Shown: positions 7,189-17,512 of the stretch, piece by piece | Position numbering within the stretch: the stretch's first letter is position 1 | Layout: each line of letters starts with the position of its first letter | Origin: Candidatus Bathyarchaeum sp. | GTDB taxonomy: Archaea > Thermoproteota > Bathyarchaeia > Bathyarchaeales > Bathyarchaeaceae | Length of the DNA: 64,000 bases | Direction: 5' to 3' | Assembly (NCBI GenBank): GCA_026014565.1 | Contig: JAOZIB010000001.1 | Span: forward strand, 62,001-126,000 | Translations under genes and position numbers: made by a program | Notes under the pieces: model-generated | The model's input: only the letters and a program-made list of their open reading frames with translations | What the model was told of the DNA's origin: nothing | The model's database searches: none

Positions 7189-7432
7189 CTAGTTCACATC
7201 CAAAGGGGTACAATTCATGGTTTTTCGGCGGGGTTACGTTTTCATCTTTTGGAGTTAAGATTAGAGGATGCAAAACCAGAATCGTTTTGCACATTTGAGT
7301 TAAAGGATGATTTTGTAACATGGACGCCAAATCCAGCAGGATGTAAGCGTTATTTAGTTTTGCCACAAACTCAAACGAAATTTTTTGACAAGGCTTATAG
7401 GAGAAATCCACTTAAACAAATGAAGAGTGGGC

Positions 7433-8563
7433 ATGTCTTCAAAACTGATTGTGGTCAAAGTTGGCACAGCGAGCCTAACCAAAAACAATGGTGTTCTAAA
7501 CAAAGAACTAATGGCCAAACTGGTTGACCAAATAGCATACGCAATCAAACAAGGCAACAAAATCGTTTTTGTAACCTCTGGAGCAGTAGCAGCAGGCATG
7601 GCAGAATTACAAATTCCACCAAAACCCAACGATATAGTCTTCCAGCAAGTTTGCGCAGCTTCGGGACAGAGCATAATCATGTCCACATACAGGGAGCTTT
7701 TCAAAAAGCACAACCTAAAAGTTGCCCAAATCTTGCTAACTGCAGAAGACCTCTCAAACCGTGCGGCCTATTTGCATATTTGTGATGTTTTAGAACTTGC
7801 GTTACAGTTAGGAATTGTTCCCATAATTAACGAAAATGATGTAACCTCCACGGACGAGCTAATCCCAATAACAAAAGGTTACGAAGTTAACTTTAGTGAC
7901 AACGACAACCTTTCAGTAAGAGTAGCAAACGCCCTAGAGGCAGACTTGGTCATCATACTATCCAACGTGGACGGCCTTTACACCATGCACCCCAAAAAGA
8001 AGGGAGCAAAACTAATCCAAACCGTTGAACAAATCACCCCTGAAATTGTATTCGAAATTGATGGAAAAAGCAAACTCGGCAGAGGGGGCATGAAAACCAA
8101 ATTGAAAGCCGCACAAGTCGCCACAGAAAGCGGAATTCCTTTGGTTATTGCCAACAGCCAAACAGAAAACGTGATAACTGACATAATTGCAGGAAAACAA
8201 GTAGGCACCCTGTTTAAGGCACAAGAAAAGTTGCCAGGAATAAAACGGTGGATAAGTTATGGTGCTTCGGTTAAAGGGCAAATTTTTGTAAATAAAGGCG
8301 CCAAAAAAGCGATTCTTGAGGGAGCGAGTCTTCTCCCGGTAGGCGTAACTAATGTGGAAGGAACATTTAACGAGGGAGAAGTAGTATGCCTCATCGACCA
8401 TAACGGTGATGAGTTTGCAAAAGCAAACCCTAATTACAATAGCGGCGAAATCGGGGCAATAAAAGGTTTAAAAACAAATCAAATCAAAAATGCTCTAGGG
8501 TACATCCGCCATAAAGAGGTAGTTGCCCGAAAAAACATATGCTTATTGAAGTGTGAAATATGA
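7433..8563 (+). CDS. proB: glutamate 5-kinase
   Basis: Catalyses ATP-dependent phosphorylation of glutamate to gamma-glutamyl phosphate, the first step of proline synthesis. The amino-acid-kinase fold starts with VVKVGTASLT, continues with VTSGAVAAGM, and has the NENDVTS and FSDNDNLSVRVA substrate/nucleotide motifs and GRGGMKTKLKAA. The C-terminal ~90 residues form a PUA domain (KKAILEGASLLPVGV), as in bacterial-type ProB, and the total length is normal. ATG at 7433 is used; GTG at 7427 is in frame two codons earlier. A TATA-like CTTATAG at about 7394-7400 fits a short leader. It overlaps proA by 4 nt. Confidence 0.93.
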   Translation: MSSKLIVVKVGTASLTKNNGVLNKELMAKLVDQIAYAIKQGNKIVFVTSGAVAAGMAELQIPPKPNDIVFQQVCAASGQSIIMSTYRELFKKHNLKVAQILLTAEDLSNRAAYLHICDVLELALQLGIVPIINENDVTSTDELIPITKGYEVNFSDNDNLSVRVANALEADLVIILSNVDGLYTMHPKKKGAKLIQTVEQITPEIVFEIDGKSKLGRGGMKTKLKAAQVATESGIPLVIANSQTENVITDIIAGKQVGTLFKAQEKLPGIKRWISYGASVKGQIFVNKGAKKAILEGASLLPVGVTNVEGTFNEGEVVCLIDHNGDEFAKANPNYNSGEIGAIKGLKTNQIKNALGYIRHKEVVARKNICLLKCEI

Positions 8564-9801
8564 TAGAAGAAATTTGCAAAAAAGCAAAAGTGGCATCTAA
8601 ACAGTTAGCCCAACTTTCAGATGAACAAAAAAACAGGGCACTATGCTTAATGGCAGACGCCCTTGAAGAAAACTCAGCAAAAATTTTAGAAGCAAACCAA
8701 ACCGACGTAGAAGAAGCCCGAGCCAAAGGAGTAAAAGAAGCCCTCATTGACCGCCTAGTTCTAGGCCAAAAACGTGTAGACGCCATGGCAAATGACCTGA
8801 GAGGACTGACAAAACTTGTTGACCCCGTAAACGAAATTGTAAAAACATGGACTCGACCCAACGGATTAATCATCGGGCAAATGCGAGTGCCTCTTGGAGT
8901 AATTGGAATTATTTACGAATCTAGACCCAACGTAACTTCTGAAGCTTCGGGACTGTGCATTAAATCAGGAAACGCCATAATCCTCAGAGGCGGTTCAGAT
9001 GCCATTCGCTCAAACATGGCAATAGGTGATGCCCTGCGTGCTGCCCTGAAAAAGGCAGAAGTAGATGAGAACGCGATACAGGTTGTTCCAGTAACTGACC
9101 GAAGCGTAGCAGAAAAAATGATGACCATGCGCCAATACATCGACGTGTTGATACCCCGTGGCGGAGCGGGATTAATCAAAACGGTAGTTGAAAAATCCAA
9201 TGTTCCAGTCATCGAAACTGGAACCGGAAACTGTCACATCTACGTGGAACCCGACGCAGACCTAAAACGAGCAATAGACATCGTAATCAATGCCAAATGT
9301 CAACGACCCGGAGTTTGTAACGCGGCAGAAAAATTATTAATCCATAAGGACACCGACAAAAAGTTCCTGTTTGACGTGGTTTCGGCTCTCAACCTCAATG
9401 GCGTAGAAGTTAGAGCCTGCGAAAAAACCATGAAAATTATGCCTAATCTAAAACCTGCAACAGAAGAAGACTGGTACACAGAATTTCTGGACCTCATCAT
9501 CGGCATAAAAATCGTGGAAAACACCCAAGAAGCAATCGACCACATCAACAAATACGGAACAAACCACTCGGAATCAATTCTAACAGCAAACTTTGACAAG
9601 GCACTAAAATTCATCCGCGAAGTAGACTCCGCAGCAGTATACTGGAACTCCTCCACCAGATTCACCGACGGTAACCAATTCGGAATGGGAGCAGAAATCG
9701 GAATCAGCACTCAAAAACTCCACGCACGAGGACCAATGAGCATCCACCAACTAACAACAACAAAATTCTTCATACTGGGCAGGGGACACATCAGACCCTA
9801 A
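8560..9801 (+). CDS. proA: glutamate-5-semialdehyde dehydrogenase (gamma-glutamyl phosphate reductase)
   Basis: Reduces gamma-glutamyl phosphate to glutamate semialdehyde with NADPH, the second proline step. The 413-residue protein has the expected family features: IYESRPNVT, a glycine-rich ILRGGSDA segment, PRGGAGLI, and the catalytic cysteine in QRPGVCNAAEKLLIH. It ends with the conserved GRGHIRP-type tail. ATGA overlap with proB shows translational coupling. The third enzyme, pyrroline-5-carboxylate reductase, is not in the window. A complete proBA unit is patchy in archaea and may have been acquired from bacteria (inference). Confidence 0.95.
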   Translation: MIEEICKKAKVASKQLAQLSDEQKNRALCLMADALEENSAKILEANQTDVEEARAKGVKEALIDRLVLGQKRVDAMANDLRGLTKLVDPVNEIVKTWTRPNGLIIGQMRVPLGVIGIIYESRPNVTSEASGLCIKSGNAIILRGGSDAIRSNMAIGDALRAALKKAEVDENAIQVVPVTDRSVAEKMMTMRQYIDVLIPRGGAGLIKTVVEKSNVPVIETGTGNCHIYVEPDADLKRAIDIVINAKCQRPGVCNAAEKLLIHKDTDKKFLFDVVSALNLNGVEVRACEKTMKIMPNLKPATEEDWYTEFLDLIIGIKIVENTQEAIDHINKYGTNHSESILTANFDKALKFIREVDSAAVYWNSSTRFTDGNQFGMGAEIGISTQKLHARGPMSIHQLTTTKFFILGRGHIRP

Positions 9802-10992: not shown

Positions 10993-11559
10993 ATGACAGA
11001 AGGGTGGACAACACGAACAAGCGGAGTTCCACGTGGCCTCCTACGCTTTTTAGTCATTAACATGCTCATGAACAAGCCCATGTCCGGAGTAGAAATTGTT
11101 GAAGTAATCGAAACAGAAACAGGCGGACGATGGAAACCCAGTTCCGGTTCAGTTTATCCCCTTTTGGCAAAACTTCATGAACGAGGCTACACAGTTGAAG
11201 AACCCACCGAAGAAACTGGAATTAAAAGATACACAATCACCAAAAAAGGAAAACAATTCTTTGAAAAACAGATAAGTTTTGGACAAAAATTGCTGAATAA
11301 ACTAGAATTTCTTGTTCCTTTGCTTATTGCTGGATTCCAATTCTACCATAAAGATGAAAAAATCGTTTCTGGAACCAGAAAACCAGCCCAACGAGTAGTC
11401 AAAAAACTGTTGGACATTCGGCAAACAAGTGCTAAACTTACTGAAGAAGATGCACAAGAAATTGAAAAGATTCTGAACAAATGTGCAGATGAACTGGAAA
11501 CAGTTTTTCAAACAATTAATGAAAAAAACCAAAACACAAGCAACAATTATGAGGAATGA
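10993..11559 (+). CDS. PadR-family transcription regulator of the ABC exporter operon
   Basis: A 188-residue protein with the PadR winged helix (PRGLLRFLVINMLMNKPMSG, GSVYPLLAKLHERGY, then a wing and YTITKKGKQF) and a long C-terminal helical part for dimerisation. It is the first gene of an operon with an FtsX permease and two ATPases; its stop overlaps the permease start by 4 nt. A perfect PadR-type operator lies directly upstream, so it most likely represses its own operon and releases it when a ligand, often an exported compound or envelope stress signal, binds. Confidence 0.88.
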   Translation: MTEGWTTRTSGVPRGLLRFLVINMLMNKPMSGVEIVEVIETETGGRWKPSSGSVYPLLAKLHERGYTVEEPTEETGIKRYTITKKGKQFFEKQISFGQKLLNKLEFLVPLLIAGFQFYHKDEKIVSGTRKPAQRVVKKLLDIRQTSAKLTEEDAQEIEKILNKCADELETVFQTINEKNQNTSNNYEE

Positions 11560-14930: not shown

Positions 14931-15692
14931 ATGTCAACAACAGAAAACAAACAAAAAAACAATACAGTTAACAAAAACAAAGAACCAATTCTTGTAATCA
15001 CTGGTTTACACAAACGATACAGCGAGGGAAAATCAAACGAAGTCCACGCCATACGAGGACTAGACCTCACCGTCAACAAAGGCGACATGATGGCAATAAT
15101 GGGACCTTCCGGATGCGGAAAAACAACCCTGCTGAACATGATAGGTCACCTAGACCGCCACTCAGACGGCAAAATCATCATCGACACAATTGACACAGCT
15201 ACCCTTTCAGATGGTAAAATGACCAGTTTTAGAAGAGATAAAATTGGTTTTATTTTTCAGTTGTTCAATTTGTTTCCATTCTTGTCGGCAGTAGAAAACG
15301 TGGAAACCCCCCTTTTACTAAAAGGAATGAAAGCAGGAGTAGCCCGCGAACAAGCAAAAATGATTCTAAGAGAACTGGGAATGGGGGACAGACTCTACCA
15401 CAAACCTTCAGAGCTTTCTGGAGGACAACAACAAAGAATTGCAGTTGCTCGTGCCCTGATTACTGAGCCTGCAATCATTCTTGGTGACGAACCAACGGGA
15501 GATTTGGATTCTACTACAAGTGCCGACGTCATGAACCTGTTTCGTAGAATCAACAAAATCAACAGGCAAACTTTGGTTCTGGTAACCCACAACCGATGGA
15601 TTGCTGAACAATGCGACTATATTGTCCATATGAGTGATGGAAAAGTTTCCAATGTGGAATATGGTCCCTTCAAAACTACGGAGGAAGCCTAA
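14931..15692 (+). CDS. ABC transporter ATPase, LolD/MacB type
   Basis: A 253-residue nucleotide-binding subunit: Walker A GPSGCGKTT (about residue 58), Q-loop FQLFNLFPFLSAVEN, signature LSGGQQQR (about 161), Walker B ILGDEPTGDLD and H-loop THN. The DEPTGDLD form and the Q-loop are typical of ATPases paired with FtsX permeases. The first ~20 residues (TENKQKNNTVNKNKE) are a low-complexity tail. It overlaps the next ATPase by 1 nt (TAATG), so this exporter has two different ATPases. Confidence 0.92.
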   Translation: MSTTENKQKNNTVNKNKEPILVITGLHKRYSEGKSNEVHAIRGLDLTVNKGDMMAIMGPSGCGKTTLLNMIGHLDRHSDGKIIIDTIDTATLSDGKMTSFRRDKIGFIFQLFNLFPFLSAVENVETPLLLKGMKAGVAREQAKMILRELGMGDRLYHKPSELSGGQQQRIAVARALITEPAIILGDEPTGDLDSTTSADVMNLFRRINKINRQTLVLVTHNRWIAEQCDYIVHMSDGKVSNVEYGPFKTTEEA

Positions 15693-17512
15693 TGCAAGTT
15701 TACGCCGCCGGAATAATTGATAAAACCTTGGGTCCAATCAATGCAAAATTGCAAAAGAAGCTTGTTTCTGAATGCAAAAAAGCATTACAAGCTTCAGGCA
15801 AATCCATGTCCAGCCAAGAACGGAATGCCTTCATTGTTTTGTCTGGAAAAAAGGAAGGCTCAGTGGAGCAAAAAGTTGTTGAATCTGTTGAAACGGGTCG
15901 AGTGTACAGGCAGTTCAAAAAATATTATGCAGACAACGAGTCCAGACTGCGCCAACATCTTAAAGACGACCAAGAACTGCGAGAAACCTCCAAGATAATT
16001 AAGGATTTTATTAAAGAAATTAACCCAAATCTTGTGAAACTCTTTGATTCTCAACTCAAAAAGATAATCAAAGAATTGCCTTCCAGCAACCGTGAAATCC
16101 AACTAAAAAGCTATGTTACGGTCTGGGATTTTAATGAAACCCAAGAATACCGCTTTTATCTTTCAGGATTTGATTCTTCTGAATTCACAGGTTCTACAGC
16201 TCAGACACAACTAAATATAGAAGAACTTGTTGACAAACTGATTATGGCAAACTTCTTTTCAGTTTTCACAAAACCCACAATCACCCGACTTCAAGAATTA
16301 GACAAAATCCTAGAAAGGCTAGAACTTGGCGTAGGCGGTTCTCATTACAAAACCAACAACCCCAAACTGCAAAAAAAACTAGAATTGTTCTTGAGAATTT
16401 TAGCAGCAAAACTTAGTGCCCTACAAGACATCGACAACCTGCTTTCCCGAATTTTCAAACTATTCCAAGTTCCACAAAAATCGCTAACGCCCTACACAAT
16501 AAAAAACCAATCAATAGATCTCAGCCTTGCCTTGTCAGAAATTGCGTCAGAAATCGAACAAGGAAAAACTTTGCTTGGGGATGTTCAGAACAAAATTCAG
16601 CAGTGCCAGATTCATCTTCGTGACTACTTGGATGAGCACAAAAACGGAATAAGAACTATTGAATCAAACGACGAGTTCAAAAAGGCGTTGTTGCCTCTTG
16701 CAGAACTAAGCACGGACCTATTCGTTGAAGCTGAACTGCTAAAAATGTGGTCAGACTTTTTCGGAGTTGACATTCCATATTTCAGCTTCAATAAACGAGT
16801 TTTCAACACTCAAGACATCGAAATAACAGACATAGACCCCAACACAATCTTAGCTGTTCGGGGATTAACCAAAAACTACAATCTTGGACGAACCACAGTT
16901 TATGCCCTCCGAGGAGTAAATGTCGATATCAAAGAAGGCGAATTTGTGGCAATCGTTGGAAACTCTGGTGCAGGAAAAACCACTCTATTAAACTGCATAG
17001 CAGGTCTAGACAGCCCAGATTATGGTGTGGTTTTGTTCCGGGGGGAAAACCTTCACAAAATGAATGATGAAAACAAATCCAAAGCCCGACTTAAAGAGAT
17101 GGGTTTCATATTCCAAAGTTACGCTTTGCTACCTCATTTCAGCGCTCAGGAAAACATTGCCTTACCGGCTGACCTAGCAGGACTAAGCAAAGACCTCAAA
17201 GAACGCATAGAAGACCTCCTGAAAGGAGTGGGGTTAAGCAACCAAGCAAAACAGTATCCAGCAACCCTAAGCGGTGGACAAATGCAACGAGTAGCCATTG
17301 CCAGAGCATTAACTAACAGGCCGGCAGTAATATTTGCTGATGAACCAACGGGAGATTTGGACTCTGCAACTGGAAAACAGGTAATGGAGTTGCTCGAAAA
17401 ATTCCATGAAGAAACAAAAACCACAATAATCATCATCACCCACGAACAAGACATCGCAGACTACGCTCAACGACAAATCCAAATTGAAGACGGGGTAATA
17501 GTTTCAGAATAA
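15692..17512 (+). CDS. ABC transporter ATPase with a ~370-residue N-terminal extension
   Basis: Residues from about 385 to 606 form a complete MacB-type ATPase: Walker A VGNSGAGKTTLL (about 423), signature LSGGQMQR (about 526), Walker B VIFADEPTGDLD and H-loop THEQ. The first ~370 residues are a helical, charged domain (for example NESRLRQHLKDDQELRETSK and KPTITRLQELDKILERLELG) with no transmembrane segment and no motif I recognise. It is not a degenerate second ATPase, because Walker and signature motifs are absent. As the domain sits in the cytosol on one ATPase of an asymmetric pair, a regulatory or partner-docking role is an inference. A single frame encodes both parts, so it is a real fusion. 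Confidence 0.88.
   Translation: MQVYAAGIIDKTLGPINAKLQKKLVSECKKALQASGKSMSSQERNAFIVLSGKKEGSVEQKVVESVETGRVYRQFKKYYADNESRLRQHLKDDQELRETSKIIKDFIKEINPNLVKLFDSQLKKIIKELPSSNREIQLKSYVTVWDFNETQEYRFYLSGFDSSEFTGSTAQTQLNIEELVDKLIMANFFSVFTKPTITRLQELDKILERLELGVGGSHYKTNNPKLQKKLELFLRILAAKLSALQDIDNLLSRIFKLFQVPQKSLTPYTIKNQSIDLSLALSEIASEIEQGKTLLGDVQNKIQQCQIHLRDYLDEHKNGIRTIESNDEFKKALLPLAELSTDLFVEAELLKMWSDFFGVDIPYFSFNKRVFNTQDIEITDIDPNTILAVRGLTKNYNLGRTTVYALRGVNVDIKEGEFVAIVGNSGAGKTTLLNCIAGLDSPDYGVVLFRGENLHKMNDENKSKARLKEMGFIFQSYALLPHFSAQENIALPADLAGLSKDLKERIEDLLKGVGLSNQAKQYPATLSGGQMQRVAIARALTNRPAVIFADEPTGDLDSATGKQVMELLEKFHEETKTTIIIITHEQDIADYAQRQIQIEDGVIVSE

Follow-up and report, generated by a model that had tools for sequence, protein, structure and literature searches.

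A conserved N-terminal domain without recognised relatives on one of two tandem ATPases in a duplicated-permease FtsX/MacB-type operon of Bathyarchaeia and Asgard archaea

The operon and the fused ATPase

The DNA analysed here, referred to as the window, comprises 64,000 nt from Candidatus Bathyarchaeum sp. (GCA_026014565.1, JAOZIB010000001.1:62,001-126,000, forward strand). An open reading frame at 15692-17512 (+), with 606 open codons and a product of 606 aa, encodes an ATPase fused to an N-terminal domain (N-domain). It is the fourth and last gene of a tightly packed operon, after genes for a PadR regulator, a permease and a plain ATPase, ABC1 (Table 1). The PadR stop codon overlaps the start of the permease gene, and the stop of ABC1 and the start of the fused ATPase overlap as TAATG. 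It is plausible that the operon is PadR-controlled, and the label of exporter, which was taken from the family to which the system belongs, is likewise plausible.

Table 1. Positions of the operon genes and protein domains in the window
Feature	Position	Strand	Basis
PadR-family transcriptional regulator	10993..11559	+	operon gene 1; PF03551 E=2.4e-13
Duplicated FtsX/MacB-type permease, 1121 aa	11556..14921	+	FtsX two stretches 1e-29; MacB_PCD 6.2e-6; ADOP 5.4e-23
ABC1, plain LolD-like ATPase, 253 aa	14931..15692	+	LolD_lipo_ex 9.6e-65; catalytic motifs all intact
N-domain of the fused ATPase, residues 1-371	15692..16804	+	AF2 model; conservation, 60 sequences
Low-confidence linker between N-domain and ATPase, about residues 372-385	16805..16846	+	pLDDT < 50 at 372-378
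ABC2, ATPase domain of the fused protein	16847..17512	+	GNSGAGKT 423-430, LSGGQ 526-530, ADEPTGDLD 549-557, H584

A reading made from the sequence only had described a domain of some 370 residues, free of membrane helices, ahead of a complete ATPase. Profile analysis agreed with this description. Residues 386-604 constituted a complete LolD-like ATPase (ABC_tran 7e-36; LolD_lipo_ex 7.6e-67), and hydropathy revealed no membrane helix in the whole protein (highest Kyte-Doolittle 19-mer value 1.15). The same reading had considered the partner ATPase normal and had assigned two FtsX domains to a single permease chain, and both descriptions were found to be correct (Table 1). Hydropathy analysis of the permease indicated about 12 transmembrane (TM) segments, arranged as 4 + 4 (linker) + 4, and two large ectodomains at about residues 47-291 and 635-985.

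At 7427-9801 a glutamate 5-kinase-like gene and a glutamate-5-semialdehyde dehydrogenase-like gene lie next to each other. This pair, which we take to serve proline synthesis, has no relation to the operon.

Distribution, gene order and evolution of the fusion

The fusion was detected in 12 of 61 genomes (that of the window and 60 relatives) and in 24 of 257 Bathyarchaeia genomes. Scanning one genome per species gave 19 loci, from Bathyarchaeota and Hodarchaeota/Heimdallarchaeota. For Bacteria and the remaining archaeal phyla the scan used two peptide patterns of the near family, and distant members may be present there. A broad profile of the N-domain only (39 rows) matched 53 of 228 Asgard genomes, counted without kinship labels. 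At least three of these matches (G291, G353, G369) were weak and partial and are regarded as chance, leaving about 50 of 228; weak Asgard matches in frames of 953, 551, 1005 and 1720 aa were also regarded as chance. The frames with full-length matches were open over about 600-670 aa, apart from those at contig ends or with extra C-terminal or inserted segments, and identity within the family went down to ~17%. Thermoproteota outside Bathyarchaeia gave only two weak partial matches, and no member of the family was found on plasmids or viral contigs. Candidatus Bathyarchaeum tardum, which is kept in enrichment culture (PMC10477458), carries a close copy with an N-domain 84% identical to that of the window, so that expression can be tested.

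The sequence-only reading had named an assembly artefact as one outcome that would speak against the fusion. The same fusion recurred in dozens of independent assemblies, together with the operon, in both Bathyarchaeia and Asgard archaea, and is thus the product of neither chance nor misassembly. Free-standing versions of the N-domain, which the same reading had proposed to look for, did not turn up in 61 relatives even with the threshold relaxed to E<=10, where the only returns were two matches at noise level. Four short copies that appeared free-standing (L054, L056, L190, L191) had been cut by gaps or contig ends. Similarly, five Bathyarchaeia genomes in which the permease seemed to lack the N-domain had permease copies broken by contig ends or N-joins.

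Gene order was well conserved. An ABC1-type ATPase lay immediately 5' of the fused ATPase in all 19 loci of the one-genome-per-species scan, preceded by the permease wherever the contig extended that far. Where the flank was long enough, PadR came first in most Bathyarchaeia loci; flanking genes varied between genera, and no consistent partner gene was found beyond PadR. Among 20 further Asgard loci, permease, ABC1 and fusion were contiguous in 17. The remaining three (L128, L130, L139) all fall in a single subclade, and in each of them the fused gene lies apart from the permease and ABC1. Members of this subclade (among them L076, L077, L078 and L128) have ADQL instead of ADEP at Walker B, the catalytic Glu being replaced by Gln, and the arrangement is therefore not universal. 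Walker A, the signature, the catalytic Glu and the His were kept in nearly all members of both ABC1 and ABC2. The N-domain was absent from the other FtsX systems of the window genome and from a distant duplicated permease of the same class, which has a single ATPase.

A tree of 130 ATPase domains placed all 61 N-domain-linked ATPases in one group (support 100/98) with the ABC1 partners outside it. This topology points to one fusion event and an ancient heteromeric pair: the fusion probably arose once, and the tree fits a long co-inheritance of ABC1 and ABC2. The bathyarchaeal fused ATPases grouped with Hodarchaeales, within Asgard diversity. Asgard as one clade was rejected (p-AU 2e-5), in a test for which the group was named post hoc and long branches were present. 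The nested position of Bathyarchaeia suggests a transfer, which according to the tree was likely from Asgard archaea to Bathyarchaeia, and the family is thus a likely example of gene exchange between these lineages.

Strong purifying selection acts on the N-domain: comparison with two relatives, L013 and L017, gave dN/dS values of 0.080 and 0.089, comparable with the permease. At equal distances it diverged faster than the ATPases, with 44-52% identity as compared to 74-80%.

Fold and conservation of the N-domain

Residues 1-379 of the fused protein gave no significant match in Pfam, NCBIfam, PHROGs or PADLOC when searched alone. Comparison of the N-domain with PDB sequences returned only coiled-coil and designed-bundle noise, and the domain showed no similarity to the ATPase or permease of the operon. 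An internal duplication was also tested and found no support.

The AlphaFold2 model of the N-domain, based on 39 sequences, was confident (pLDDT 91.2, pTM 0.88). The predicted fold is mixed alpha/beta with long helices, and strands were modelled at residues 2-8, 39-44, 47-53, 142-147, 152-157, 164-168, 218-221 and 320-323. The domain had been described as helical, which holds for the long helices but not for the domain as a whole. Its C-terminal limit was placed at about residue 371, followed by the low-confidence linker to about residue 385. The model of the full-length fused protein was poor over the ATPase. Foldseek searches of PDB and BFVD with the N-domain model yielded no match at E<=0.001, the best in PDB being to designed bundles at 0.06, and judged against these two databases the modelled domain is provisionally a new fold. 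A match to a known ABC-ATPase accessory family, the other outcome that the sequence-only reading had named as speaking against its view, was found neither by profile nor by fold.

Foldseek gave a hint of the CorA cytosolic domain (E 0.19-0.31, TM 0.21-0.33, about 13-14 Å rmsd). This candidate was rejected: hhalign comparison with CorA proteins from the window genome and related ones gave a probability of 0.2, whereas near and far N-domains, compared as a positive control, reached 99.8.

The nearly invariant residues of the N-domain in 60 sequences were F47, D360, Y78, E43, E95, N45, F188, F357, W145, D355 and K11, and no invariant Cys or His was among the top conserved residues. E43, N45, E95, D355 and D360 were retained in 54-59 of the 60 sequences, at identities down to ~17%. 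Such near-invariance argues for a specific site or interface. Two of these residues delimit a conserved C-terminal segment, D355-x-F-x-x-D360, directly ahead of the ATPase.

Relation to known systems, possible mechanism and variants

The permease, with an FtsX-type TM domain and a MacB-like extracytoplasmic domain, and the ATPases, of LolD/MacB type with intact motifs, place the system with the type VII (MacB/LolCDE/FtsEX/YbbAP) ABC systems. In the well-studied type VII machines both ATPase positions are filled by the same protein, and the partners known for these machines work largely on the opposite side of the membrane. ATP-driven closure of the two ATPases moves the extracytoplasmic domains in these machines (PMC12646458). 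In YbbAP-TesA of E. coli, a single pseudosymmetric YbbP carries two copies of YbbA, and the complex takes hydrophobic compounds out of the membrane (PMC12646458). The system studied here resembles YbbAP-TesA in its single-chain duplicated permease, two ectodomains, LolD-like ATPases and, as we envisage it, two ATPase subunits per permease. It departs from the YbbAP type in that YbbP has 10 TM helices (4+2+4; PMC12646458) as compared to about 12 (4+4+4) here, and in that YbbA is one gene used twice, whereas here two distinct tandem genes would be used jointly in the complex. Moreover, YbbA has no counterpart of the ~371-aa N-domain carried by one ATPase, and no TesA-like partner was seen at the locus.

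LolCDE shares the LolD-like ATPases and FtsX-type permease domains, but LolD is one gene used twice without an extra domain, and LolC and LolE are separate chains. The scores of 225 and 218 bits were below the LolD equivalog cut-off of 308. With MacB/ADOP the system shares FtsX and MacB_PCD domains and an ADOP-like duplicated permease match, although the ADOP score was far under its cut-off (81 versus 622 bits); in MacB the ATPase is fused to the permease and has no domain on its N-terminal side. Divergent ABC3 (FtsX-type) systems of Heimdallarchaeota, a group that also has the fusion, have been placed in the uncharacterised TC# 3.A.1.157, and the accessible part of that article mentions no ATPase appendage (PMC7997004); this class may overlap the present family. 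Permutations of the MacB family, including duplicated permeases, are described in the available text of a review (PMC5985334). An ATPase appendage of this kind was not described in the available parts of MacB-family reviews (PMC5985334) and the open-licence literature. Bacillus YtrBCDEF has two nucleotide-binding proteins, for which assembly in one transporter is not established (PMC7828314).

The pseudo-dimeric single-chain permease and the two distinct, intact tandem ATPases, whose lineages have been separate throughout the history of the family, led us to infer an asymmetric heteromer of two different ATPases on one permease, as the sequence-only reading had proposed. We give about an even chance to an asymmetric type VII machine in which one cytosolic regulatory or docking appendage gates the ABC1:ABC2 motor. 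The heterodimer and its stoichiometry, the location of the appendage, the gating and the class of substrate would then be as follows. The two LolD-like ATPases would form a heterodimer that drives a single pseudo-dimeric permease chain and its two extracytoplasmic domains, each ATPase docking on one permease half by analogy with YbbAP-TesA. As only ABC2 carries the N-domain, each complex would have a single large appendage in the cytosol, on one side only. The N-domain would bind a cytosolic partner or signal and gate the motor through the D355-x-F-x-x-D360 segment, and the substrate on which the ATP-driven movement does its work, a hydrophobic compound or a peptide, would lie outside the membrane. 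Such a machine would follow a different logic, in which control comes from the inside and bears on only one of the two halves of a pseudo-symmetric permease.

The N-domain could also be purely structural or catalytic. A clamp without sensing, which would enforce ABC1:ABC2 pairing and the correct docking of each ATPase on its own permease half, is consistent with the restriction of the domain to systems with two ATPase genes and one asymmetric permease, with its absence from the duplicated permease of the same class that has a single ATPase, and with the conserved C-terminal segment adjoining the ATPase. However, the N-domain is large and has changed more rapidly than ABC1 or ABC2, its N-terminal half has conserved polar residues a long way from the ATPase along the chain, and asymmetric ABC machines elsewhere pair without such a clamp; we consider this role unlikely. 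PCAT-type transporters, in which a fused peptidase prepares the substrate, are the model for a domain with an enzymatic or substrate-binding role that would make a cytosolic substrate ready for export. The near-invariant polar set K11, E43, N45, E95, D355 and D360, kept at identities down to ~17%, would suit such a domain, but the N-domain matched no peptidase or other enzyme family or fold and has no invariant Cys or His among its top conserved residues. As type VII substrates also normally come from the membrane or from outside (PMC12646458), a preparatory function appears decidedly improbable. Even less probable is a co-transcribed soluble regulator outside the permease complex. The Asgard subclade with a separate fused gene and a lost catalytic Glu is in line with it, whereas the strict adjacency and co-inheritance in other lineages, the LolD type of the ATPase and the nearest same-class arrangement, which pairs such ATPases with a permease, all tell against it.

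The gated asymmetric machine also has a stronger form, which we put forward tentatively as a rather doubtful proposal: the N-domain would have a fold not seen before and would be the first regulatory domain known from the cytosolic side of a type VII ABC machine, with a single Asgard origin, always part of a heteromeric two-ATPase system and passed on to Bathyarchaeia, and would act as a signal-gated, one-sided mechanotransmission device. In any case the N-domain represents a domain family to which nothing was matched and for which a confident model is at hand, and it is suited to structure determination.

Some variation was observed in the size of the proteins. Two fused ATPases were 716 aa in length (L011:1498-3645 and L046:478-2625), the former with about two TM helices in a C-terminal extension. 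Hodarchaeal fused ATPases (L064 and L134:6367-9156) had a long, apparently coiled-coil C-terminal extension and reached about 870-930 aa in total. In a divergent fused ATPase from Asgard archaea (742 aa; L189:1810-4035) hydrophobic segments were predicted, which suggests a membrane-attached variant. Five permeases (L016, L018, L019, L025, L030) were about 140-160 aa longer (1261-1279 aa), with the extra sequence N-terminal and probably part of the first ectodomain.
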